DNA of 64,000 nucleotides, taken from NCBI GenBank assembly GCA_002842695.1, contig PHDT01000007.1:62001-126000 (forward strand), written 5' to 3'. Shown here one piece after another: positions 24,026 to 40,462 of this stretch. Positions within the stretch are counted from its first letter, which is position 1. Every line of letters starts with the position of its first letter. Source of the DNA: Bacteroidetes bacterium HGW-Bacteroidetes-10. GTDB lineage: Bacteria > Bacteroidota > Bacteroidia > Bacteroidales > UBA932. A program made the position numbers and the translations under genes. The notes below the pieces were generated by a model. The model was not told the DNA's origin, did not search any database, and worked only from the letters and a program-made list of their open reading frames with translations.

Positions 24026-24592
24026 ATGGAAGTTACTTTTCCAAAGAGACTGGTTGTCCCTGTTGTTGTACTCTTAGGAGCTGCGGCAGGCTTTTTCATC
24101 TATCTGATGTATGTTGCCAGAATGCCCTCTTATCTGTCGGACGATCCTTCGGCATGTGTCAATTGCCATATTATGGCTCCCTATTATCAGTCGTGGCAGA
24201 AGAGTTCCCATCAGGCATGGGCAACATGTAACGAGTGCCATGTGCCTCATGACAATGTCTTTCGTCAGTACGCATTCAAGGCAAAGGACGGACTCTTTCA
24301 TGCATCTGTTTTTACTCTCAGGATGGAACCTCAGGTACTCAGACCGAGGGAGGAGAGCTATGGTGTTATTATGGAGAACTGCATAAGGTGCCATACTCAG
24401 CTTAACACAGAATTTGTAAAGACAGGAATGCTCAGTTATGCCGATACACAGAAGGGAATGGGTAAGGCTTGCTGGGATTGCCACAGGGAGGTCCCTCACG
24501 GCAGATTGTCAAATCTGGCAATGAGTCCAAATGCAATTGTTCCGCTTCCTGCATCTCCTGTCCCTCAGTGGTTAAAAAAGATAATGCAATAA
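24026..24592 (+). CDS. nrfH: Cytochrome c nitrite reductase small subunit NrfH
   Basis: N-terminal TM anchor and four CxxCH motifs (CVNCH, CNECH, CIRCH, CWDCH). Confidence 0.95.
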   Translation: MEVTFPKRLVVPVVVLLGAAAGFFIYLMYVARMPSYLSDDPSACVNCHIMAPYYQSWQKSSHQAWATCNECHVPHDNVFRQYAFKAKDGLFHASVFTLRMEPQVLRPREESYGVIMENCIRCHTQLNTEFVKTGMLSYADTQKGMGKACWDCHREVPHGRLSNLAMSPNAIVPLPASPVPQWLKKIMQ

Positions 24593-24602
24593 AACCGATA
24601 CC

Positions 24603-26093
24603 ATGAAACTTAAACATTTCATTGAAAAACGTAAAGGCCTGCTAATGTGGGTGCTTTTTGGAGGAACTATGATTATAGTATTTCTCCTTGGACTTCTTGC
24701 CGCCTCTGTAAACGAGAGACGCGCAGAGATTGCCACCCTCTTTTCGAACAAAAGGGTTGATATTACAGGAATAGAGCCCCGTAATGAGATCTGGGGCGAA
24801 AACTATCCCCGTGAATTCGAAACATGGCAAAAAACTGCAGATACATCTTTCCAGAGCAAGCATAACGGGAATAAATTTGTCGATGTACTGGAGCAAAGGC
24901 CGGAGATGGTAGTTCTCTGGGCAGGATATGCATTCTCTCAGGATTACTCGGCTCCGCGGGGTCACTCGCATGCTCTTGACGATATGCGCAACTCTCTCAG
25001 AACCGGAGCTCCAATGACGGCAGAGGAGGGACCTCAGCCTGCAACCTGCTGGGCCTGCAAGAGTCCTGATGTTCCAAGAATGATGGCAGAGGTTGGAATA
25101 GAAAATTTCTACTCTAAGAAATGGGCTGCTTTTGGCCACGAAATAGTTAACACAATAGGCTGCGCAGATTGTCACAATCCGCAGAACATGAACATTAACA
25201 TATCACGCCCTGCTCTTGCCGAGGCATATAACAGGATGGGAATGGATATTGGAAAATCTTCAATTCAGGACCTCCGCTCCCTCGCATGTGCTCAGTGTCA
25301 CGTAGAGTACTATTTCAAGGGCGATGGAAAGTACCTTACATTTCCGTGGGATAAGGGTATGACTGTTGAGGCAATAGAGGAGTATTACGACGAGGCCGGC
25401 TTTACAGACTGGACTCACAAACTAAGCAAGGCACCAATGCTCAAGGCTCAGCACCCCGATTATGAGATTTTCAAACTTGGACCTCACGCTCAGAGAGGAC
25501 TCTCATGTGCAGATTGCCATATGCCTTACAAAACAGATGGTGCTATCAAATACAGCGACCACCAGCTTGTCTCTCCTGTTTTGAACATTGACCGCACATG
25601 CCAGAGCTGTCACCGCGACAGTAAGGAGAACCTGATGAAGTATATCTACGAATATCAGGATAAAGTACTGGAGATTCGCGACAGAGTCGAAAAAGAGCTT
25701 GTAAGGGCGCATGTGGGTGCAAAATATGCATGGGATAACGGAGCCAGCGAAAAGCAGATGGAACCCGTACTCAAGCAGCTCAGAGCAGCACAGTGGAGAT
25801 GGGACTTTGCTGTTGCTTCGCACGGAGCATCATTCCACGCACCGGTTGAGACTCAGAGAATTCTTGCCCATTCACTTGACAGAAGCTATCAGGCACAGCT
25901 GGAGGTTCAGAAGGTGCTGGCATCGCTGGGTGTAAAGGGCGAAATTCCAACACCTGATATTTCTACAAAAGAGAAGGCTCAGGAGTATATTGGACTTGAC
26001 ATGAAAGAGCTTCGCGCTAAAAAAGAGGTATTCACATCTACAATCGTTCCTCAATGGCTGGAGAAAGCAAAGGCAAACAAGAGACTTTTATAA
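24603..26093 (+). CDS. nrfA: Ammonia-forming cytochrome c nitrite reductase NrfA
   Basis: CWACK catalytic heme motif plus CADCH, CAQCH, CADCH, CQSCH. Confidence 0.97.
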   Translation: MKLKHFIEKRKGLLMWVLFGGTMIIVFLLGLLAASVNERRAEIATLFSNKRVDITGIEPRNEIWGENYPREFETWQKTADTSFQSKHNGNKFVDVLEQRPEMVVLWAGYAFSQDYSAPRGHSHALDDMRNSLRTGAPMTAEEGPQPATCWACKSPDVPRMMAEVGIENFYSKKWAAFGHEIVNTIGCADCHNPQNMNINISRPALAEAYNRMGMDIGKSSIQDLRSLACAQCHVEYYFKGDGKYLTFPWDKGMTVEAIEEYYDEAGFTDWTHKLSKAPMLKAQHPDYEIFKLGPHAQRGLSCADCHMPYKTDGAIKYSDHQLVSPVLNIDRTCQSCHRDSKENLMKYIYEYQDKVLEIRDRVEKELVRAHVGAKYAWDNGASEKQMEPVLKQLRAAQWRWDFAVASHGASFHAPVETQRILAHSLDRSYQAQLEVQKVLASLGVKGEIPTPDISTKEKAQEYIGLDMKELRAKKEVFTSTIVPQWLEKAKANKRLL

Positions 26094-27184
26094 GTGAACT
26101 GTTATTCATTCTGGCCGTAACAATTGCAGGGTTCGCCCTGCAATTTGTTACAGGGGCTCTCGATTTTTCAATCTTTGCCTCACCTGTTAACATAATGCTT
26201 GCAGCTCTTCTGCTGGCACTTGCTTTTGTAAAGCCGGCCACCACAGTAGGCAGATTCGGTTCCGGAAAGGTGTCGGTGATATTGCTGGTGTCAATTACTC
26301 TTATGTCACTTTACATGGGTCTCGTTCCGGGAAACGATGTTAAGCACTCATGGCCATTTGCATTTACTTATCTGATGATAATGGCAAACCTGGCACTTAC
26401 AATGGGGCGCAGGCTGAGAAACTTCAAACTGAAAAGAGATTACAGCTTCATGCTTAACCATTTTGGTCTCTTTATACTGCTTGTGGCGGCCGGCCCGGGA
26501 TCTGCAGATATGCAGAGATATTTCATGAGAGTTTCAGAAGGTCAGACTGAGTGGAGAGGAGAGAGAGAGGGTTCACAGACGCCGGAAGAGCTTCCCCTGG
26601 CGATAGCTCTAAAGGATTTTTCCATGGAGGAGTATTCGCCTCGCATTGCTCTTATAGACAAAGCGACAGGAGAGACTCAGCCTTCTGGAAAACCTTCACT
26701 TCTTGAGAGTATCGAGGGTTCAGAGGGAGTGATATCTGAGTGGGCTGTTGTTGTTGACACGTTCGATTATCGTCCCCGAATGGCTCCGAGAGCATTTATT
26801 ACCGCAACTCGCAAGGCTGATAATACTGTAACAAGCGGGTGGGTAAGCTGCGGGAATCATTTTCAGCCCTTCTCTGTACTCGATGTGTCAGAGCGACTGT
26901 GTTTCGCAATGACTTTCCCTGAGCCAAAAAAATTTACATCGGATGTAGTGGTATACACTAAAAGCGGAATCGAGAAAAAGGGTTTGGTTGAGGTGAATAA
27001 ACCTCTTACGGCAGGAAGCTGGAAGGTGTATCAGTATTCGTATGATACAAGAGCTGGAAGAGATTCAGAAATATCTGTATTTGAACTGGTTTATGATCCC
27101 TGGATAAAACTGGTTTATACCGGAATTATACTGGTAATGCTTGGATCTTTAACACTATTCTGGAAGGGAGGGAAAAAGGAATGA
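26054..27184 (+). CDS. ResB/Ccs1-like cytochrome c biogenesis protein
   Basis: Membrane protein with ResB-like periplasmic domain; between nrfA and ccsA; overlaps the nrfA 3' end. Confidence 0.8.
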   Translation: MAGESKGKQETFISELLFILAVTIAGFALQFVTGALDFSIFASPVNIMLAALLLALAFVKPATTVGRFGSGKVSVILLVSITLMSLYMGLVPGNDVKHSWPFAFTYLMIMANLALTMGRRLRNFKLKRDYSFMLNHFGLFILLVAAGPGSADMQRYFMRVSEGQTEWRGEREGSQTPEELPLAIALKDFSMEEYSPRIALIDKATGETQPSGKPSLLESIEGSEGVISEWAVVVDTFDYRPRMAPRAFITATRKADNTVTSGWVSCGNHFQPFSVLDVSERLCFAMTFPEPKKFTSDVVVYTKSGIEKKGLVEVNKPLTAGSWKVYQYSYDTRAGRDSEISVFELVYDPWIKLVYTGIILVMLGSLTLFWKGGKKE

Positions 27185-27954
27185 GCTGGAGTGAATTCAT
27201 ATATTTTGCAGCCGGTTCGCTGATACTTTGGTATAGCGGAACCTTGTTACTTTACAGGGCAAAAAAGGCGCTTTGGGGAAACTTGCTCATCGTTGCAGGT
27301 TTAACTCTGTTTGCCTCCTTTATTGCGATTCTGTGGAGCTCTATGGACCATCCGCCGCTAAGGACCATGGGAGAAACCAGACTCTGGTACTCGCTCTTTA
27401 TTGTGCTGGTGGGCTACGTAACATACCTGAGGTGGAGATACAAATGGCTTATGGCCTACAGTGTTGTTGTCTCTACAGTCTTTGTTCTGGTAAATATTCT
27501 TAAACCTGAGATACACACAGCCAATCTCATGCCTGCCCTGCAGAGCGTCTGGTTTGTGCCTCATGTGACAGTCTATATTCTTTCATATGCAATGATGGGA
27601 GCAGCTACAATAGCTGCATTGATCGCCCTGTGGAGAGAAGAGGGTAAAGAGGGAGATCTGTTTGCACTTATCGACAACCTTATTTTTATTGGCTTTGGCT
27701 TTCTTGTTGCAGGAATGCTTATGGGTGCTGTCTGGGCAAAAGAGGCCTGGGGAGACTACTGGACATGGGACCCAAAAGAGGTCTGGGCATTTATCACAGC
27801 CGCCTCCTACCTGGTTTACCTGCATGCCTCATATGCCGGTATTTCAAAAAGAAAAGCCCTTATAATAATCCCTCTTGCTTTTATCATGCTCATGATTACC
27901 TGGCTTGGTGTAGAATATCTGGCTGTAGCACAGGAGAGTATCCACTCATACTAA
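27181..27954 (+). CDS. CcsA/ResC-like cytochrome c assembly protein
   Basis: WAKEAWGDYWTWDPKEVWAFITAASYLVYLHA tryptophan-rich heme-handling motif. Confidence 0.93.
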   Translation: MSWSEFIYFAAGSLILWYSGTLLLYRAKKALWGNLLIVAGLTLFASFIAILWSSMDHPPLRTMGETRLWYSLFIVLVGYVTYLRWRYKWLMAYSVVVSTVFVLVNILKPEIHTANLMPALQSVWFVPHVTVYILSYAMMGAATIAALIALWREEGKEGDLFALIDNLIFIGFGFLVAGMLMGAVWAKEAWGDYWTWDPKEVWAFITAASYLVYLHASYAGISKRKALIIIPLAFIMLMITWLGVEYLAVAQESIHSY

Positions 27955-30307: not shown

Positions 30308-31921
30308 ATGAATATTGAGAGTTTAGTCAGAAGAAATATCAGAGAACTCGTTCCCTACTCGACGGCAAGAGATGAGTGCGGCCTTGAGAGCGGAATATTT
30401 CTTGATGCGAATGAAAGCCCGTTTAACAATGGATTCAATCGCTATCCAGATCCGGCGCAATTAAAGCTAAAACAGATATATTCATTAGTTACCGGAATCC
30501 CTTCAGAGAACTTGTTTGCAGGTAATGGCAGCGATGAGGCGATAGACCTGCTTATAAGAGTCTTCTGTGAACCAGGAGCAGATAACATTGTCACCATCTC
30601 TCCGACATACGGAATGTACAGAACTGCAGCTGCTGTTAACGACATCAAATGTACAGAGGTTCCGCTTGAGGCAGATTTCTCACTTAATCCGCAAAAGTTA
30701 CTGAAGGCGTGTGCTGCAGAGACAAAGATTATTTTTCTCTGTTCCCCGAATAATCCAACAGGGAATCTCCTTAATAAAGATTCTGTTGAGACAGTCATCA
30801 GAAATTTCAGGGGAATTGTAGTTGTAGATGAAGCCTACATTGACTTTTCGGGTGACGGGGGTTTTGCAGGTAAGGTCAATACATTTCCCAACCTGGTAGT
30901 GTTGAGAACCCTGTCAAAGGCATGGGGTATGGCCGGCCTGAGGGTAGGGTTTGCGATTGCTTCCGCCCCTCTGGTCTCATTCCTCAGCAAGGTAAAATAT
31001 CCTTACAATGTTAACACCCTGAGTCAGGAGAAGGCTGTATCCCTGCTTAAAAGAGGAAACAGAAGCCAGCTTGACACTGTCATTTTCGAACGGGAGAGGG
31101 TGGCATCTGAGCTAAAGCTGGTTTCGGATGTGGTTGAGGTATTTCCCTCTGATGCAAACTTCCTTCTTGTAAGGTTTAAGGACTCAAAAGAGGTGTTCCG
31201 GAGGCTTCTTAACAGCGGCATTATTGTAAGAGACAGAACATCTGCTGAAGGCTGCAGAGGTGCACTGAGAATAAGCATAGGCACCGGAAGTGAAAATACT
31301 CTTCTTCTTGACAGGATAAAGGGAACCTGTGCAGGCAATGCTCTTTCGCTGCTCTGCCGGCAGCGGAGTACAGCTGAGACAATGATTTCGGTTAAGATTG
31401 ATCCCGGTGGAAATCTGGTTAATGAGATTTCAACAGGTATACCATTTTTCAACCATATGCTTGAGCAGATTCCTGTACATGGCGGTTTTTCGCTGCAGTT
31501 ATGGGCATCGGGTGACCTGGAAAACGGTGCTCACCACACAATTGAAGATGTTGCAATTGTGGTTGGGGAGGCTCTGAGTGAGCTGGTTGCATCTGTGCCT
31601 GGCAATAATCGTTATGGGTTCTCTCTTCCAATGGATGAGTCATCTGCGTCAGTCCTGATTGATACCGGAGGCAGGGCATATCTGAAGTGGGAAGCAGATT
31701 TTCCTGCAGAGTATGTTGAGGGAATTGAGTCAGATATGTTCAGACACTTCTTCGACACCCTCTCCAGGAGCATGAAAGCTACAATTCATGTGAAGGCCGG
31801 GGGGACAAATGCCCACCATGTCGCTGAAGCTATCTTCAAAGCATTTGCCAGAGCATTGCGAACCGCACTGAGCTCATCCGGAGACGACACAAAAATTCAA
31901 AGCAGCAAAGGAGTGTTATGA
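30308..31921 (+). CDS. hisCB: Fused histidinol-phosphate aminotransferase / imidazoleglycerol-phosphate dehydratase (HisC-HisB)
   Basis: N-terminal HisC (SPNNPTGNLL, VVDEAYIDF, TLSKAWGMAGLRVGFAIA) continuous with a C-terminal IGPD domain (FFNHMLEQIPVHGGF, HHTIEDVAIVVGEAL, NAHHVAEAIFKAFARAL, IQSSKGVL). Confidence 0.93.
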   Translation: MNIESLVRRNIRELVPYSTARDECGLESGIFLDANESPFNNGFNRYPDPAQLKLKQIYSLVTGIPSENLFAGNGSDEAIDLLIRVFCEPGADNIVTISPTYGMYRTAAAVNDIKCTEVPLEADFSLNPQKLLKACAAETKIIFLCSPNNPTGNLLNKDSVETVIRNFRGIVVVDEAYIDFSGDGGFAGKVNTFPNLVVLRTLSKAWGMAGLRVGFAIASAPLVSFLSKVKYPYNVNTLSQEKAVSLLKRGNRSQLDTVIFERERVASELKLVSDVVEVFPSDANFLLVRFKDSKEVFRRLLNSGIIVRDRTSAEGCRGALRISIGTGSENTLLLDRIKGTCAGNALSLLCRQRSTAETMISVKIDPGGNLVNEISTGIPFFNHMLEQIPVHGGFSLQLWASGDLENGAHHTIEDVAIVVGEALSELVASVPGNNRYGFSLPMDESSASVLIDTGGRAYLKWEADFPAEYVEGIESDMFRHFFDTLSRSMKATIHVKAGGTNAHHVAEAIFKAFARALRTALSSSGDDTKIQSSKGVL

Positions 31922-36305: not shown

Positions 36306-36448
36306 AAATTATAATTATTTGTAAGAAAAGACTATTGTTTTAGTTACAACAAATATAAATTATTAAAGTTTTCATTCAAAACAATAATTTTTTATCTTCG
36401 TAAGCATAACCTGGCTTACAAAACAACCTAACTAACTATTATAACTTT

Positions 36449-36766
36449 ATGGCAACTATTGAACTTGGAGGGAAAGTATTTGAAATTGACGGGGATGGCT
36501 TTCTTACAGATCCGGCTGTGTGGAATGACGAAGTGGCGACACTGTTTGCAAAGGCAGACGGAATTGAAGAGATGAATGACAAACACTGGGCAATTGTCCG
36601 GATTATCAGAAACAATTTTGAGGAGAAAGGGAATGCTCCAATGATCAGAATGATTTGCCAGGAGACAGGTCTCAAACTGCGTGAGATATATGAACTTTTC
36701 CCGCTTGGTCCTGCCAGAGGAGCCTGCAGGGTAGCCGGCCTTCCAAAGCCGGACGGATGTGTATAA
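36449..36766 (+). CDS. DsrC/TusE-family sulfur relay protein with both C-terminal-arm cysteines
   Basis: DGFLTDPAVWNDEVA and C-terminus GPARGACRVAGLPKPDGCV; penultimate Cys plus Cys 11 positions upstream as in DsrC. Confidence 0.93.
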   Translation: MATIELGGKVFEIDGDGFLTDPAVWNDEVATLFAKADGIEEMNDKHWAIVRIIRNNFEEKGNAPMIRMICQETGLKLREIYELFPLGPARGACRVAGLPKPDGCV

Positions 36767-37403
36767 CATTCAGGACATGAAGTGGTATATTATCATAGCT
36801 CTGGCAGCACTTGCAATCTCAGTCGCAATGCTGCTCATTCAGCTTATTAAACTTATTTCTGCAGGTAAACCAAAAGATCTGTCGAAAGGATCAGGAAATA
36901 TATCAGCCGGAGTGGCTTACTCCTATACTAAAGCGATGTCTCCAATGGAGAAGGAATCGGCATACCTGCACCTTCCAACCTATGCGGCAGGGATGATATA
37001 CCATGCGGGTATATTTGCCTCTCTTTTGCTGTTTCTGCTTTTTATCTCATCGCTTTTTGAAATACCGCAGGGCATAAGCATTATTGCAGGAGCAATACTC
37101 GTAATTTCAGGCTTGTGCGGGTTAGCTATCTTGTTTAAGAGATTTATAAATGCAGGGCTGAGGTCACTCTCAGGTGCAGATGACTACATCTCAAATTTTC
37201 TTACTACACTGGCAATCTTTGCAACAGCTGCATTTCTGTTTTTTGAACAGGCAGAGGTTCTCTATTATATGATTGTCTCTGTTTTGCTGCTGTGGATTCC
37301 TCTTGGAAAAACAAGGCATCTTCTCTATTTCTTTTTTGCAAGATACCACCTTGGATACTTTTTCGGGAAACGCGGGACATGGCCGCCAAAATCACTTAAA
37401 TAA
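36759..37403 (+). CDS. NarI/DsrM-like membrane b-type cytochrome subunit (candidate)
   Basis: Membrane protein with several TM helices, YHAGIFASLLLFLL and GKTRHLLYFFFARYHLGYFFGKRGTWPP; encoded between DsrC and a DsrK/HdrD-like protein. Confidence 0.7.
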   Translation: MYNIQDMKWYIIIALAALAISVAMLLIQLIKLISAGKPKDLSKGSGNISAGVAYSYTKAMSPMEKESAYLHLPTYAAGMIYHAGIFASLLLFLLFISSLFEIPQGISIIAGAILVISGLCGLAILFKRFINAGLRSLSGADDYISNFLTTLAIFATAAFLFFEQAEVLYYMIVSVLLLWIPLGKTRHLLYFFFARYHLGYFFGKRGTWPPKSLK

Positions 37404-37413
37404 AGAGCAGGAA

Positions 37414-38709
37414 ATGGAAAGAAATATAAAGAAAAAGGGTCTTGATGTTCTTGCCGGTAAAATTGACAACAAGCTTCTGACAAATCTTAACAGCTGCGTA
37501 AGATGCGGCTTATGTGCAGATAGCTGTATGTTCTTTAAGGCACTGAATGAGCCAAAGTATATACCTGCAAGAAAGGTTGCCCTTGTGAGTTCTGTTTACA
37601 GGAGATATTTTACTTTATCAGGGAAGATAGCACCTGTACTTGTAAATGCTAAAGAACTGGATGATCATGCTGCAGAGGAGATGGTTGATCTCCTGTTTGG
37701 AGCCTGCACAATGTGCGGAAGGTGTGTTAAACACTGTTCAATTGGGGTGGATATACCTTATGTAGTCAGAAAAGGGAGAGAGATGCTTGCCGCCATGGAT
37801 ATGGTTCCGGATACTCTTCAGGCAACAGTTGATTCAGCTTTAACTACCGGTAACAATATGGGTATTCCTGAAGAGGAGTTTACCGGTACTATCCAGTGGA
37901 TGGAGGAGGAGCTAATTGATGAGATGGGTGACGAAAAGGCGAGGATTCCGCTCAATGAAATGCATGCCGAGATTTTCTATACACTCAATCCCAGAGAACC
38001 GAAATTTTTCCCGCTCTCAATTTCTGCCATGGCAAAGATTTTCTATGCAGCAAACGAGAACTGGACGCTATCCTCAAAGTTCTACGATGTAACCAATTAC
38101 GGTTTTTTTAACGGAAACAGAGCTGAGGCTGGTAAAATTGCGGGCAATCTTTACGATGAAATTCATCGTCTCAGAGGCAAGCGCATGGTTTTGGGTGAGT
38201 GTGGCCATGGTTCCAGGGCAAACAGATGGGATGGTCCAAACTACCTTGGAAAGGAGTATGACTTTGATATGATTACAGCTGTAGAACTAATTTCGGGTTA
38301 TATTAAACAGGGAAGAATCAGGCTTGACAAATCACTAAACAAGGAGGTTGTAACCATTCACGATCCGTGTAATCTTGTGAGAAACGGAGGTTTGCTTGAA
38401 GAGATCAGACATATTGTATCTGCTTCTTGTGACAGCTACACAGAAATGGCTCCTTTTGGGAATGAAAATTTTTGCTGTGGTGGCGGAGGCGGATTGCTTG
38501 CAATGAGTGAATACAACGACAGAAGAATAAAAGTTGGAGAAATTAAGGCAGAACAGATAAGAAAGACCGGTGCGAAAGTAGTTGTGACCCCTTGCCATAA
38601 CTGTGTCGATCAGCTTTCACAGCTTAACCACACCTTCAAACTGGGTGTGAAAATTAAAACAATAGCAGAGCTGGTGGCAGATGCTCTTGTAATTAGAAAA
38701 AACAACTAA
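37414..38709 (+). CDS. DsrK/HdrD-like (4Fe-4S) CCG-domain oxidoreductase
   Basis: Two ferredoxin-type motifs (CVRCGLCADSC, CTMCGRCVKHC) and CCG-type cysteine clusters (FCCGGGGGL; CHNCVDQL). Confidence 0.85.
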   Translation: MERNIKKKGLDVLAGKIDNKLLTNLNSCVRCGLCADSCMFFKALNEPKYIPARKVALVSSVYRRYFTLSGKIAPVLVNAKELDDHAAEEMVDLLFGACTMCGRCVKHCSIGVDIPYVVRKGREMLAAMDMVPDTLQATVDSALTTGNNMGIPEEEFTGTIQWMEEELIDEMGDEKARIPLNEMHAEIFYTLNPREPKFFPLSISAMAKIFYAANENWTLSSKFYDVTNYGFFNGNRAEAGKIAGNLYDEIHRLRGKRMVLGECGHGSRANRWDGPNYLGKEYDFDMITAVELISGYIKQGRIRLDKSLNKEVVTIHDPCNLVRNGGLLEEIRHIVSASCDSYTEMAPFGNENFCCGGGGGLLAMSEYNDRRIKVGEIKAEQIRKTGAKVVVTPCHNCVDQLSQLNHTFKLGVKIKTIAELVADALVIRKNN

Positions 38710-38719
38710 AAACATAACT

Positions 38720-39883
38720 ATGAGCAAACTGATTTATTTAGACAACTCGGCTACGAGTTTTCCAAAACCTGAATCTGTGTACGATTTCATGAACACCTTC
38801 TTCAGATCAAAGGGTGTTAGTCCGGGTCGGTCTGGTTTTGATGCGGCACTCGAAGCAGAAGAGGTAGTTAACGGAACCAGAAAGATGCTTACTAAGCTCT
38901 TTAATGGCGGATCAGATCACAACCGTCTTACATTCAGTTACAACGCGACAGATTCTCTTAATCTGATTATTAACGGACTGGTTGAGGAGGGTTCGCATGT
39001 TGTTACAACAATGCTTGAGCACAACTCCGTACTCAGACCTCTCTATTTTCACAAAACCAGGGGTACCATTGATGTAACATATGTCCCGTTTGACACAGAT
39101 GGTTTTGTGAATCCTGAGGATATTAGCACCGCAATCAGGCCAAATACGAAATTTGTAATAGTAACTCATTGTTCTAATGTTCTTGGAACAATTCAGCCAA
39201 TTGAAGAGATTGGAAGAATTTGCCGTGAAAAAGGTGTTTTGTTTATTGTAGATGGAAGTCAGGGCGCAGGATCTGTTGATTTTGACATGCAGGCTTGTAA
39301 TGTAGATGTTTATTGTTTTACTGGTCACAAATGCCTGATGGGTCCAACAGGTATTGGCGGCTCGTATGTGAGAGAGGGTGTTGAAATCAGACATACCAGA
39401 GCCGGAGGAACAGGTGTCCGTTCTGCTCAGGAGAGTCATCTTGACGAATATCCTTACAGACTGGAGTATGGTACACTCAATCTGCTGGGTGTTGGAGGCC
39501 TTCATGCCGGCGTTAAATGGATAACAGAGCAGGGTGTTATGAATATTCACCACAGGGAGATGGCACTTTGGGAGAAGCTAAATAATGCTATCAGCAAAAT
39601 TGATGGTGTTACAACTTATTGTGCGAACGGGGTCAGGAATCATAACCCGGTACTCTCTTTTAACATAAAAGGTTTCGAAGCCGGAGATGTTGGAACCATG
39701 CTTGATGTAGATTACAACATTGCCGTAAGAACAGGCCTTCAGTGTGCTCCTATGGTACATAAACAGATTGGCACATATGATATGCATGGTACTGTCAGAA
39801 TGAGCATTGGAGCATTTACAACCGAGGAGGAGATTGATGCAGCAATTGAAGCTATATCAGAAATAGCATCTTTCAGGAGATAG
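38720..39883 (+). CDS. Aminotransferase class V, cysteine desulfurase-like
   Basis: YLDNSATSFPKPESV, THCSNVLGTIQPI, FTGHKCLMGPTGIG (PLP Lys), RTGLQCAPMVHK catalytic-Cys loop. Confidence 0.9.
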   Translation: MSKLIYLDNSATSFPKPESVYDFMNTFFRSKGVSPGRSGFDAALEAEEVVNGTRKMLTKLFNGGSDHNRLTFSYNATDSLNLIINGLVEEGSHVVTTMLEHNSVLRPLYFHKTRGTIDVTYVPFDTDGFVNPEDISTAIRPNTKFVIVTHCSNVLGTIQPIEEIGRICREKGVLFIVDGSQGAGSVDFDMQACNVDVYCFTGHKCLMGPTGIGGSYVREGVEIRHTRAGGTGVRSAQESHLDEYPYRLEYGTLNLLGVGGLHAGVKWITEQGVMNIHHREMALWEKLNNAISKIDGVTTYCANGVRNHNPVLSFNIKGFEAGDVGTMLDVDYNIAVRTGLQCAPMVHKQIGTYDMHGTVRMSIGAFTTEEEIDAAIEAISEIASFRR

Positions 39884-39928: not shown

Positions 39929-39975
39929 GATTAAGGCCACTCTATTTATAATATAGATTGGCCTTAATTCTTTTA
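39929..39975. terminator. Bidirectional terminator between convergent genes
   Basis: ATTAAGGCCA (39930-39939) / TGGCCTTAAT (39959-39968) hairpin followed by TTCTTTT. Confidence 0.8.
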
Positions 39976-39988
39976 AATAAATGGTATC

Positions 39989-40462
39989 CTATTTCCAGGT
40001 TTTGAATGGATGTGCAGAGAGATAGACATTGAAATACTTTTTCTCATGACTTACCTCTTCGCCAAGCCATGAGGGTTTTGAAAATGGCTGATTTTCCTCG
40101 TTTAATTCAATTTCGGCAATAATTAATCCCTCATTTTCTCCGGAAAACTCATCGACTTCAAAAATATGACCGTCATGTTTAACCAGTGACCTTGTCTTCT
40201 CAATTAAATGACCTTCGCAAAGATTAAGAAGATTTTGTGCCTCTTCTTTTGAGATTTCTTTTTCCCATTCGAATCTGCTGATCCCTCCTGAGAGAGTTTT
40301 TCCCTTTATCGTGATGAAGCCTTTTGACTCCTCCAGCCTCACCCGAACAGTTCTTTCAGGGTTGGAAGAGATGTATCCCTGTGTTATTTTTCTGGATGAA
40401 CTTATAAGATTTTTATAATTTCCGGTGACAAGAAACTTTCTCTCTATTTCAATATTATTCAT
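39989..40462 (-). CDS. CYTH-domain protein
   Basis: MNNIEIERKFLVTGNYKNL (EIERKF signature), RVRLEESKGFITIKG, LVKHDGHIFEVDEFSGE. Confidence 0.92.
   Translation of the reverse strand: MNNIEIERKFLVTGNYKNLISSSRKITQGYISSNPERTVRVRLEESKGFITIKGKTLSGGISRFEWEKEISKEEAQNLLNLCEGHLIEKTRSLVKHDGHIFEVDEFSGENEGLIIAEIELNEENQPFSKPSWLGEEVSHEKKYFNVYLSAHPFKTWK

Follow-up and report, generated by a model that had tools for sequence, protein, structure and literature searches.

The subject of this study is a four-gene operon within a stretch of 64,000 nucleotides from Bacteroidetes bacterium HGW-Bacteroidetes-10 (contig PHDT01000007.1, positions 62,001 to 126,000; hereafter the window), which encodes a DsrC protein with two redox cysteines, a NarI-fold membrane subunit, an iron-sulfur (Fe-S) protein of the HdrD/DsrK/TmcB kind and a cysteine desulfurase. 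We propose that the operon constitutes a membrane-bound thiol/disulfide reductase for DsrC that comes with its own sulfur supplier and operates with no sulfite reductase, DsrC being loaded from cysteine and re-reduced by menaquinol; this interpretation carries about half of our confidence. An earlier inspection of the letters and open reading frames (the sequence-only reading) had reported four closely spaced genes on one strand, and these are indeed present, tightly packed, at positions 36449-39883 of the window, with a terminator hairpin after the desulfurase gene. The set is not a chance arrangement, as it is kept across Bacteroidota and Ignavibacteria.

The four proteins of the operon

The 105-residue DsrC exceeds the family cut-offs of both TIGR03342 (97.3 bits; cut-off 53.5) and PF04358 (115.6 bits; cut-off 24.9), and aligns end to end, both cysteines included, with the DsrC chains of the solved DsrABC complexes (PDB 2xsj/2v4j, E<=4e-27). 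Its C-terminal arm, FPLGPARGACRVAGLPKPDGCV, carries Cys93, the second arm cysteine (CysB), and Cys104, the penultimate arm cysteine; both residues and nearly the whole arm are invariant in all 53 recovered DsrC sequences. Family scores and alignment thus confirm that this is a DsrC homologue with both redox-active C-terminal cysteines, as had been claimed. The TusE equivalog threshold was missed by the protein (66.7 bits, cut-off 191) and, given this score and the two arm cysteines, membership of the TusE relay was rejected. A Pfam-type profile search also returned a weak match to LexA (E 0.021), the core of DsrC being helix-turn-helix-like. In more diverged loci (L011, L023, L025, L026, L037, L038, L060, L065, L075, L077, L079, L082, L088 and L089) a conserved cysteine-rich protein of ~80 residues is encoded directly upstream of dsrC, a candidate accessory or assembly factor with the motifs CPN-x3-C, YC or FC, C-x-R-Y/F and CPDFV; Pfam gave no significant match for it, and it is absent beside the dsrC of the window.

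For the membrane subunit, the first GTG (36759) overlaps dsrC; since Met7 of that reading frame is invariant in 61 homologues, the ATG at 36777 is the likely start. Matches of the protein to curated sequence families are weak (TmcC 25 and HmcE 27 bits, cut-offs 240 and 275), no match to a DsrM or NarI sequence family was found in profile searches, and no relatives were found in single-sequence and profile searches of the PDB. The AlphaFold2 (AF2) model comprises five long helices with a pLDDT of 91.7, and its eight best fold matches in the PDB are all NarI of NarGHI, at E-values of only 0.05-0.08 and TM-scores of 0.4-0.5. Candidate haem-ligand histidines, numbered from the GTG at 36759, are His71 and His82 in helix 2 together with His187 and His197 in helix 5: His82 and His187 are conserved in 61/61 homologues, His71 in 60/61 and His197 in 51/61. 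We take these helix-2/helix-5 pairs to fit the haem-ligand pattern of NarI. Compared with a di-haem, NarI-type DsrM, the subunit offers a NarI fold and four candidate histidines, but no sequence-family match and one variable ligand position. Of the label DsrM/NarI-like given to it previously, the NarI part stands by virtue of the model, whereas the name DsrM is unsupported, the curated cut-offs having been missed.

The Fe-S protein contains two ferredoxin motifs and one CCG site, in agreement with its description as a two-[4Fe-4S] CCG-domain protein, and 14 of its cysteines are invariant in 82/82 sequences. The best curated models are TmcB (305 bits), HmcF (291) and DsrK (248; 247.8 unrounded), all of them under their cut-offs of 735, 750 and 400 respectively. 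Structural matches of its model (pLDDT 86.9) are EtfD (E 5e-13), LutA and HdrB, and among PDB sequences single-sequence and profile searches gave only EtfD. No other CCG protein was found in its genome. Assignment as a lactate, glycolate or glycerol-phosphate oxidase subunit was rejected on the scores for LdhH (64 bits), GlcF (21) and GlpC (36/25) against cut-offs of 800, 333 and 278/280; the assignment to the DsrK/HmcF/TmcB kind, which an unrelated family of this sort would have displaced, survived the comparison (21-64 bits against 248-305). The specific name DsrK did not, as the DsrK cut-off is missed and the TmcB and HmcF models score higher: the labels DsrM and DsrK are valid at the level of fold and superfamily only.

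Assignment of the fourth gene product as a class V pyridoxal phosphate (PLP) enzyme with a cysteine-desulfurase loop proved correct. It scores 428.9 bits with TIGR01977 (cut-off 377), and both the PLP lysine, Lys204, and Cys342 of the short catalytic loop RTGLQCAP are present in 54/54 aligned sequences. A group II-like desulfurase with such a short loop presumably needs an acceptor protein.

Conservation of the gene set

With the Fe-S protein as query, a scan across ~85,000 species genomes recovered 80 loci at about 61-94% identity, from Bacteroidales, other Bacteroidota and Ignavibacteria; Butyricimonas isolates and the complete genome of Bacteroidales bacterium CF are among the sources. The membrane gene shares the locus with the Fe-S gene in 60 of 81 cases, and in 53 of those 60 the desulfurase gene is there as well; dsrC was recognised in 51 loci, which is an undercount as the ORF caller hides small overlapping genes. 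Genes outside the four-gene set vary between loci, so that the order is kept in unrelated contexts, and across the loci compared no further gene that would be a regulator or sensor is consistently conserved beside the set. Co-divergence of the four proteins is significant, a result that vertical descent alone would also produce.

Co-occurrence was analysed in 393 evenly drawn genomes of Bacteroidales, with the Fe-S family proper defined by a best stretch that scores above 400 bits, the next hit being at 131. This family is present in 44/393 genomes, spread over 23 family labels. DsrC scores fall into two classes, a high one (>=108.7 bits) with 45 genomes and a lower one (<=102), separated by a line at 108 bits that was set after the scores were seen; the high class is taken as two-cysteine DsrC since its members at known loci are of this type, the arm having been read in part of the 45. 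High-class DsrC occurs in all 44 genomes with the Fe-S protein, and in 38 of them the two genes lie close together (Fisher p = 1e-57 for the co-occurrence, a value that ignores kinship and depends on a post hoc division). Together with the locus scan, this amounts to the strong co-conservation that a check of gene order across the phylum, suggested by the sequence-only reading, was to look for.

Only a single genome (G536; locus L129, 3823-5353, minus strand) has a high-class DsrC without the Fe-S protein: here a two-cysteine dsrC is followed directly by a desulfurase gene, 52 bp apart, and the membrane and Fe-S genes are missing, which makes this locus a natural test of how dsrC and the desulfurase are linked. 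Conversely, the Fe-S gene stands alone at 21 loci, with DsrC still encoded in 18 of those genomes, and where the Fe-S gene has moved, dsrC adjoins the membrane gene in most cases. The link of dsrC to the desulfurase and its link to the membrane gene are thus both retained when the other genes are lost or have moved. A TIGR01977 desulfurase above the cut-off is encoded elsewhere in 23 of the 26 genomes that have none at the locus, a count that covers operon-bearing genomes only. In gut and rumen Bacteroidales (L044, L050, L062, L072 and similar) the operon is broken up, with the Fe-S gene alone, dsrC and the membrane gene together elsewhere and the desulfurase gene elsewhere again.

Absence of a siroheme sulfite reductase

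The profile PF01077 (NIR_SIR) covers the DsrA/B, AsrC and CysI/NirB types, c-type reductases being outside its reach. It was not found in the window's own genome (93.5% complete), and it is absent from 49 of 50 operon-bearing relatives and from 45/45 sampled genomes with high-class DsrC, several of all these genomes being incomplete metagenome-assembled genomes (MAGs). The statement that no DsrAB is encoded here can thus be extended from the window to the genome and, for siroheme reductases in general, to all but one of the 50 relatives. The lone match among the 50 relatives (L093, 760-1692, minus strand) is AsrC-like by eye and belongs to a MAG, in which it may be a binning artefact or contamination. 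Sulfite reductases are found in 26/393 genomes of the order and their absence from genomes with high-class DsrC is not clearly enriched over this background (p 0.057), so the absence is a fact on these genomes rather than a sign of avoidance.

The published rule restricts the second arm cysteine to organisms that have DsrAB, apart from exceptions in Methylococcaceae, Marinobacter and Lawsonia (PMC3397948). The Bacteroidota that carry the operon are a large further exception and contradict this rule; a second, one-cysteine DsrC in the window's genome obeys it. In their basal clade, Neukirchen et al. (PMC10504309) describe seven bacterial DsrMK-type assemblies without DsrAB; these belong to Deltaproteobacteria and Clostridia, with some Chloroflexi noted as well.

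Proposed mechanism and alternatives

In the chemistry proposed for DsrC, a persulfide on the penultimate cysteine is attacked by the second cysteine and the resulting disulfide is reduced by DsrK (PMC3397948, PMC8076601), and DsrK can reduce DsrC (PMC8076601). It is because of this chemistry, and because the conserved neighbour is a cysteine desulfurase, that we suggest a cysteine-to-DsrC scheme, in which we infer each transfer step, the direction of electron flow, menaquinol as the donor and the source of the sulfur. The desulfurase would take the sulfur of L-cysteine, with alanine leaving, and transfer it to DsrC, where it would form a persulfide on the penultimate cysteine; by homology with the DsrC of sulfite reducers, attack by the second arm cysteine would then release sulfide and leave a DsrC disulfide. 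The DsrC arm would dock at the non-cubane cluster of the CCG Fe-S protein, which would reduce the disulfide via its two cubane clusters, with electrons probably fed to it by the NarI-fold subunit upon oxidation of menaquinol, as suggested by the fold and the invariant ligands. The net reaction would be L-cysteine + menaquinol -> L-alanine + sulfide + menaquinone. Such a reductive desulfuration might act as an electron sink or provide sulfide. Quinone-linked recycling of a desulfurase-fed DsrC, as put forward in the sequence-only reading, gains from the co-conservation, the lack of a siroheme reductase and the dsrC-desulfurase pair of G536, but not in its use of the names DsrM and DsrK. Going one step further, the hosts in Bacteroidota and Ignavibacteria might respire with cysteine or another thiol-sulfur donor as electron acceptor, the desulfurase charging DsrC and the compact membrane reductase discharging sulfide with menaquinol; if true, sulfide in gut and sediment would have an unrecognised source that does not depend on sulfite reductase. 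We put this forward tentatively, as possible but rather less probable than the reductase itself.

Several points weigh against the proposal. Neither the Fe-S protein nor the membrane protein reaches any curated cut-off, which leaves linkage and superfamily as the grounds for DsrC as their substrate. The desulfurase gene is not adjacent to the set in some loci, and its presence elsewhere in the genome may there be no more than the background frequency of such enzymes in Bacteroidales. By our rough estimate, the cysteine/alanine plus sulfide couple lies near -0.1 V, presumably close to menaquinone; reduction driven by menaquinol would then be near equilibrium, with energy gained only from an upstream quinone-reducing step.

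Desulfurase and DsrC could instead form a biosynthetic relay that delivers sulfur to tRNA thiolation, Fe-S clusters or a thio-cofactor, with the quinol-linked pair recycling DsrC or freeing sulfide for assembly. TusE, a DsrC homologue, acts in this way downstream of IscS in E. coli (PMC3397948), and small-genome Bacteroidales of gut and rumen have the set, too. We nevertheless find this unlikely: TusE-type proteins are without the second cysteine (PMC3397948), which is invariant in the operon DsrC, the TusE equivalog score falls well short, and the operon has no recognisable MnmA or TusBCD gene next to it. We also know of no Tus relay with a membrane HdrD-like subunit. Equally improbable in our view is that the same DsrC reductase is fed by another sulfur source, such as polysulfide, thiosulfate, or sulfite that a non-siroheme enzyme (e.g. 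NrfA) would provide, with the desulfurase as a side partner. The genome of the window does encode a type III sulfide:quinone oxidoreductase (SQR), DsrE2 and a one-cysteine DsrC, the window itself encodes NrfHA, and NrfA can reduce sulfite; yet NrfA is periplasmic and DsrC cytoplasmic, the second DsrC occurs in only a minority of operon-bearing genomes, and the conserved neighbour is a desulfurase rather than a sulfur or sulfite enzyme.

Electrons might also flow in reverse, from the DsrC dithiol or a carried thiol to the menaquinone pool, as in Dsr-type sulfur oxidisers. DsrMK homologues work in reducers and oxidisers alike (PMC10504309) and HdrD-type chemistry is reversible in principle, but the siroheme reductase that would complete an oxidative Dsr route is missing, the desulfurase delivers organic sulfur that is already reduced, and the hosts include gut Bacteroidales such as Butyricimonas; we rate this direction as distinctly unlikely. 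Least probable is the regulatory thiol switch that the sequence-only reading had kept as an option, in which DsrC would sense the redox state of quinone or sulfur and control gene expression. The helix-turn-helix-like core with its faint LexA resemblance speaks for such a role, but a complete electron-transfer pair, with its 14 invariant cysteines and haem-type histidines, is more than a sensor would require, and no regulator or sensor gene is consistently conserved beside the set.

Locus layout and further sulfur and redox genes

The operon and its flanking elements are listed in Table 1. Upstream of dsrC lies the divergent gene fhs, and the gene beyond the hairpin, at 39989, is convergent.

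Table 1. Features of the operon and its borders (positions in the window)
Feature	Position	Strand	Evidence
dsrC, two-cysteine type	36449..36766	+	TIGR03342 97.3 bits; invariant arm; PDB DsrC matches
Five-helix NarI-fold membrane subunit, putative b-type haem quinol:Fe-S subunit	36777..37403	+	AF2 model, fold matches, conserved His
HdrD/DsrK/TmcB-like Fe-S protein, two [4Fe-4S] ferredoxin motifs and one CCG (non-cubane cluster) site	37414..38709	+	Profile scores, 14 invariant Cys, model matches
TIGR01977 class V PLP cysteine desulfurase	38720..39883	+	428.9 bits, invariant Lys204 and Cys342
Intrinsic-terminator-type hairpin closing the operon, likely bidirectional	39929..39969	+	-19.6 kcal/mol, z -5.88
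Intergenic region between divergent fhs and dsrC	36306..36448	.	Presumed operon promoter, by position only

A second sulfur cluster is located on another contig of the same genome (L003, G000:C38, 8746-16325, minus strand) and encodes an MvhD-like protein, HdrA split in two proteins, a 96-residue protein, a QmoC-like subunit, the type III SQR, the one-cysteine DsrC and DsrE2. This SQR scores 644 bits with a selenoprotein-subtype model, yet no in-frame stop was seen. Dependence of the operon on the SQR/DsrE2/one-cysteine DsrC module was rejected, as most operon-bearing genomes are without the second DsrC, which for the same reason is placed outside the core. Within the window, nrfH and nrfA are found with two cytochrome c biogenesis genes (one of them CcsB by model, the other unassigned) at 24026-27954; this region stands for quinol-linked reduction of nitrite to ammonium, and NrfA could in principle reduce sulfite. 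A single 537-residue ORF in the his operon (30308-31921) appears, by eye, to be a fusion of a HisC-type aminotransferase and a HisB-type imidazoleglycerol-phosphate dehydratase.

Significance and comparison with known systems

A DsrC that has both of the arm cysteines is taken to indicate DsrAB-dependent sulfur metabolism (PMC3397948). In ~11% of the sampled Bacteroidales genomes such a DsrC comes together with its own membrane redox pair, and a sulfite reductase is absent. If the proposed scheme is true, sulfide in gut, rumen and sediments would have a further, cysteine-fed respiratory origin, one that gene surveys for dsrAB or asr do not register. The scheme would also suggest that the unit of DsrC and its membrane reductase can work on its own as a module whose sulfur sources are interchangeable, a point of relevance to the assembly of the Dsr pathway. 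The model can be tested in cultured hosts, the Butyricimonas isolates. A search of open-access titles and abstracts for DsrC with a cysteine desulfurase in Bacteroidales, or for cysteine as a respiratory acceptor, gave no description of either; the individual parts are of known kinds, and it is their combination, the missing sulfite reductase and the broad distribution that are new to the literature searched.

With the TusE relay (IscS-TusA-TusBCD-TusE-MnmA) the operon shares the linkage of a cysteine desulfurase to a DsrC-family protein, but its DsrC has a second arm cysteine, its desulfurase is encoded in the operon next to a membrane redox pair, and there are no Tus intermediates in the operon; the DsrE-family genes of the genome lie on other contigs (TusB was not part of this search). 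The likeness to DsrMK(JOP)/DsrC is closer, comprising a two-cysteine DsrC, an HdrD-like Fe-S protein with two cubanes and one CCG site, and a NarI-type membrane subunit. In contrast to that system, the operon is without DsrAB or another siroheme reductase, no dsrJOP was recognised beside it, the DsrK score is 248 against 400, and a desulfurase is included. The nearest curated models are those of Tmc and Hmc (TmcB-TmcC and HmcF-HmcE), both for the Fe-S protein (305/291 bits) and for the membrane subunit (25/27 bits); here the operon subunits fall far under the cut-offs (735/750 and 240/275), the operon itself contains no gene for a multihaem cytochrome c, and DsrC and the desulfurase are linked to it. 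HdrDE of methanogens and EtfD (9ojn) likewise pair a CCG Fe-S protein with a NarI-fold, quinone-type membrane subunit, whereas the operon encodes these as separate chains, with DsrC as the presumed thiol partner in place of CoM-S-S-CoB or an electron-transfer flavoprotein. Since its redox subunits score far under every curated cut-off, the operon is a new branch of the DsrC/DsrMK-Tmc-HdrDE kind and a member of neither Dsr nor Tmc.

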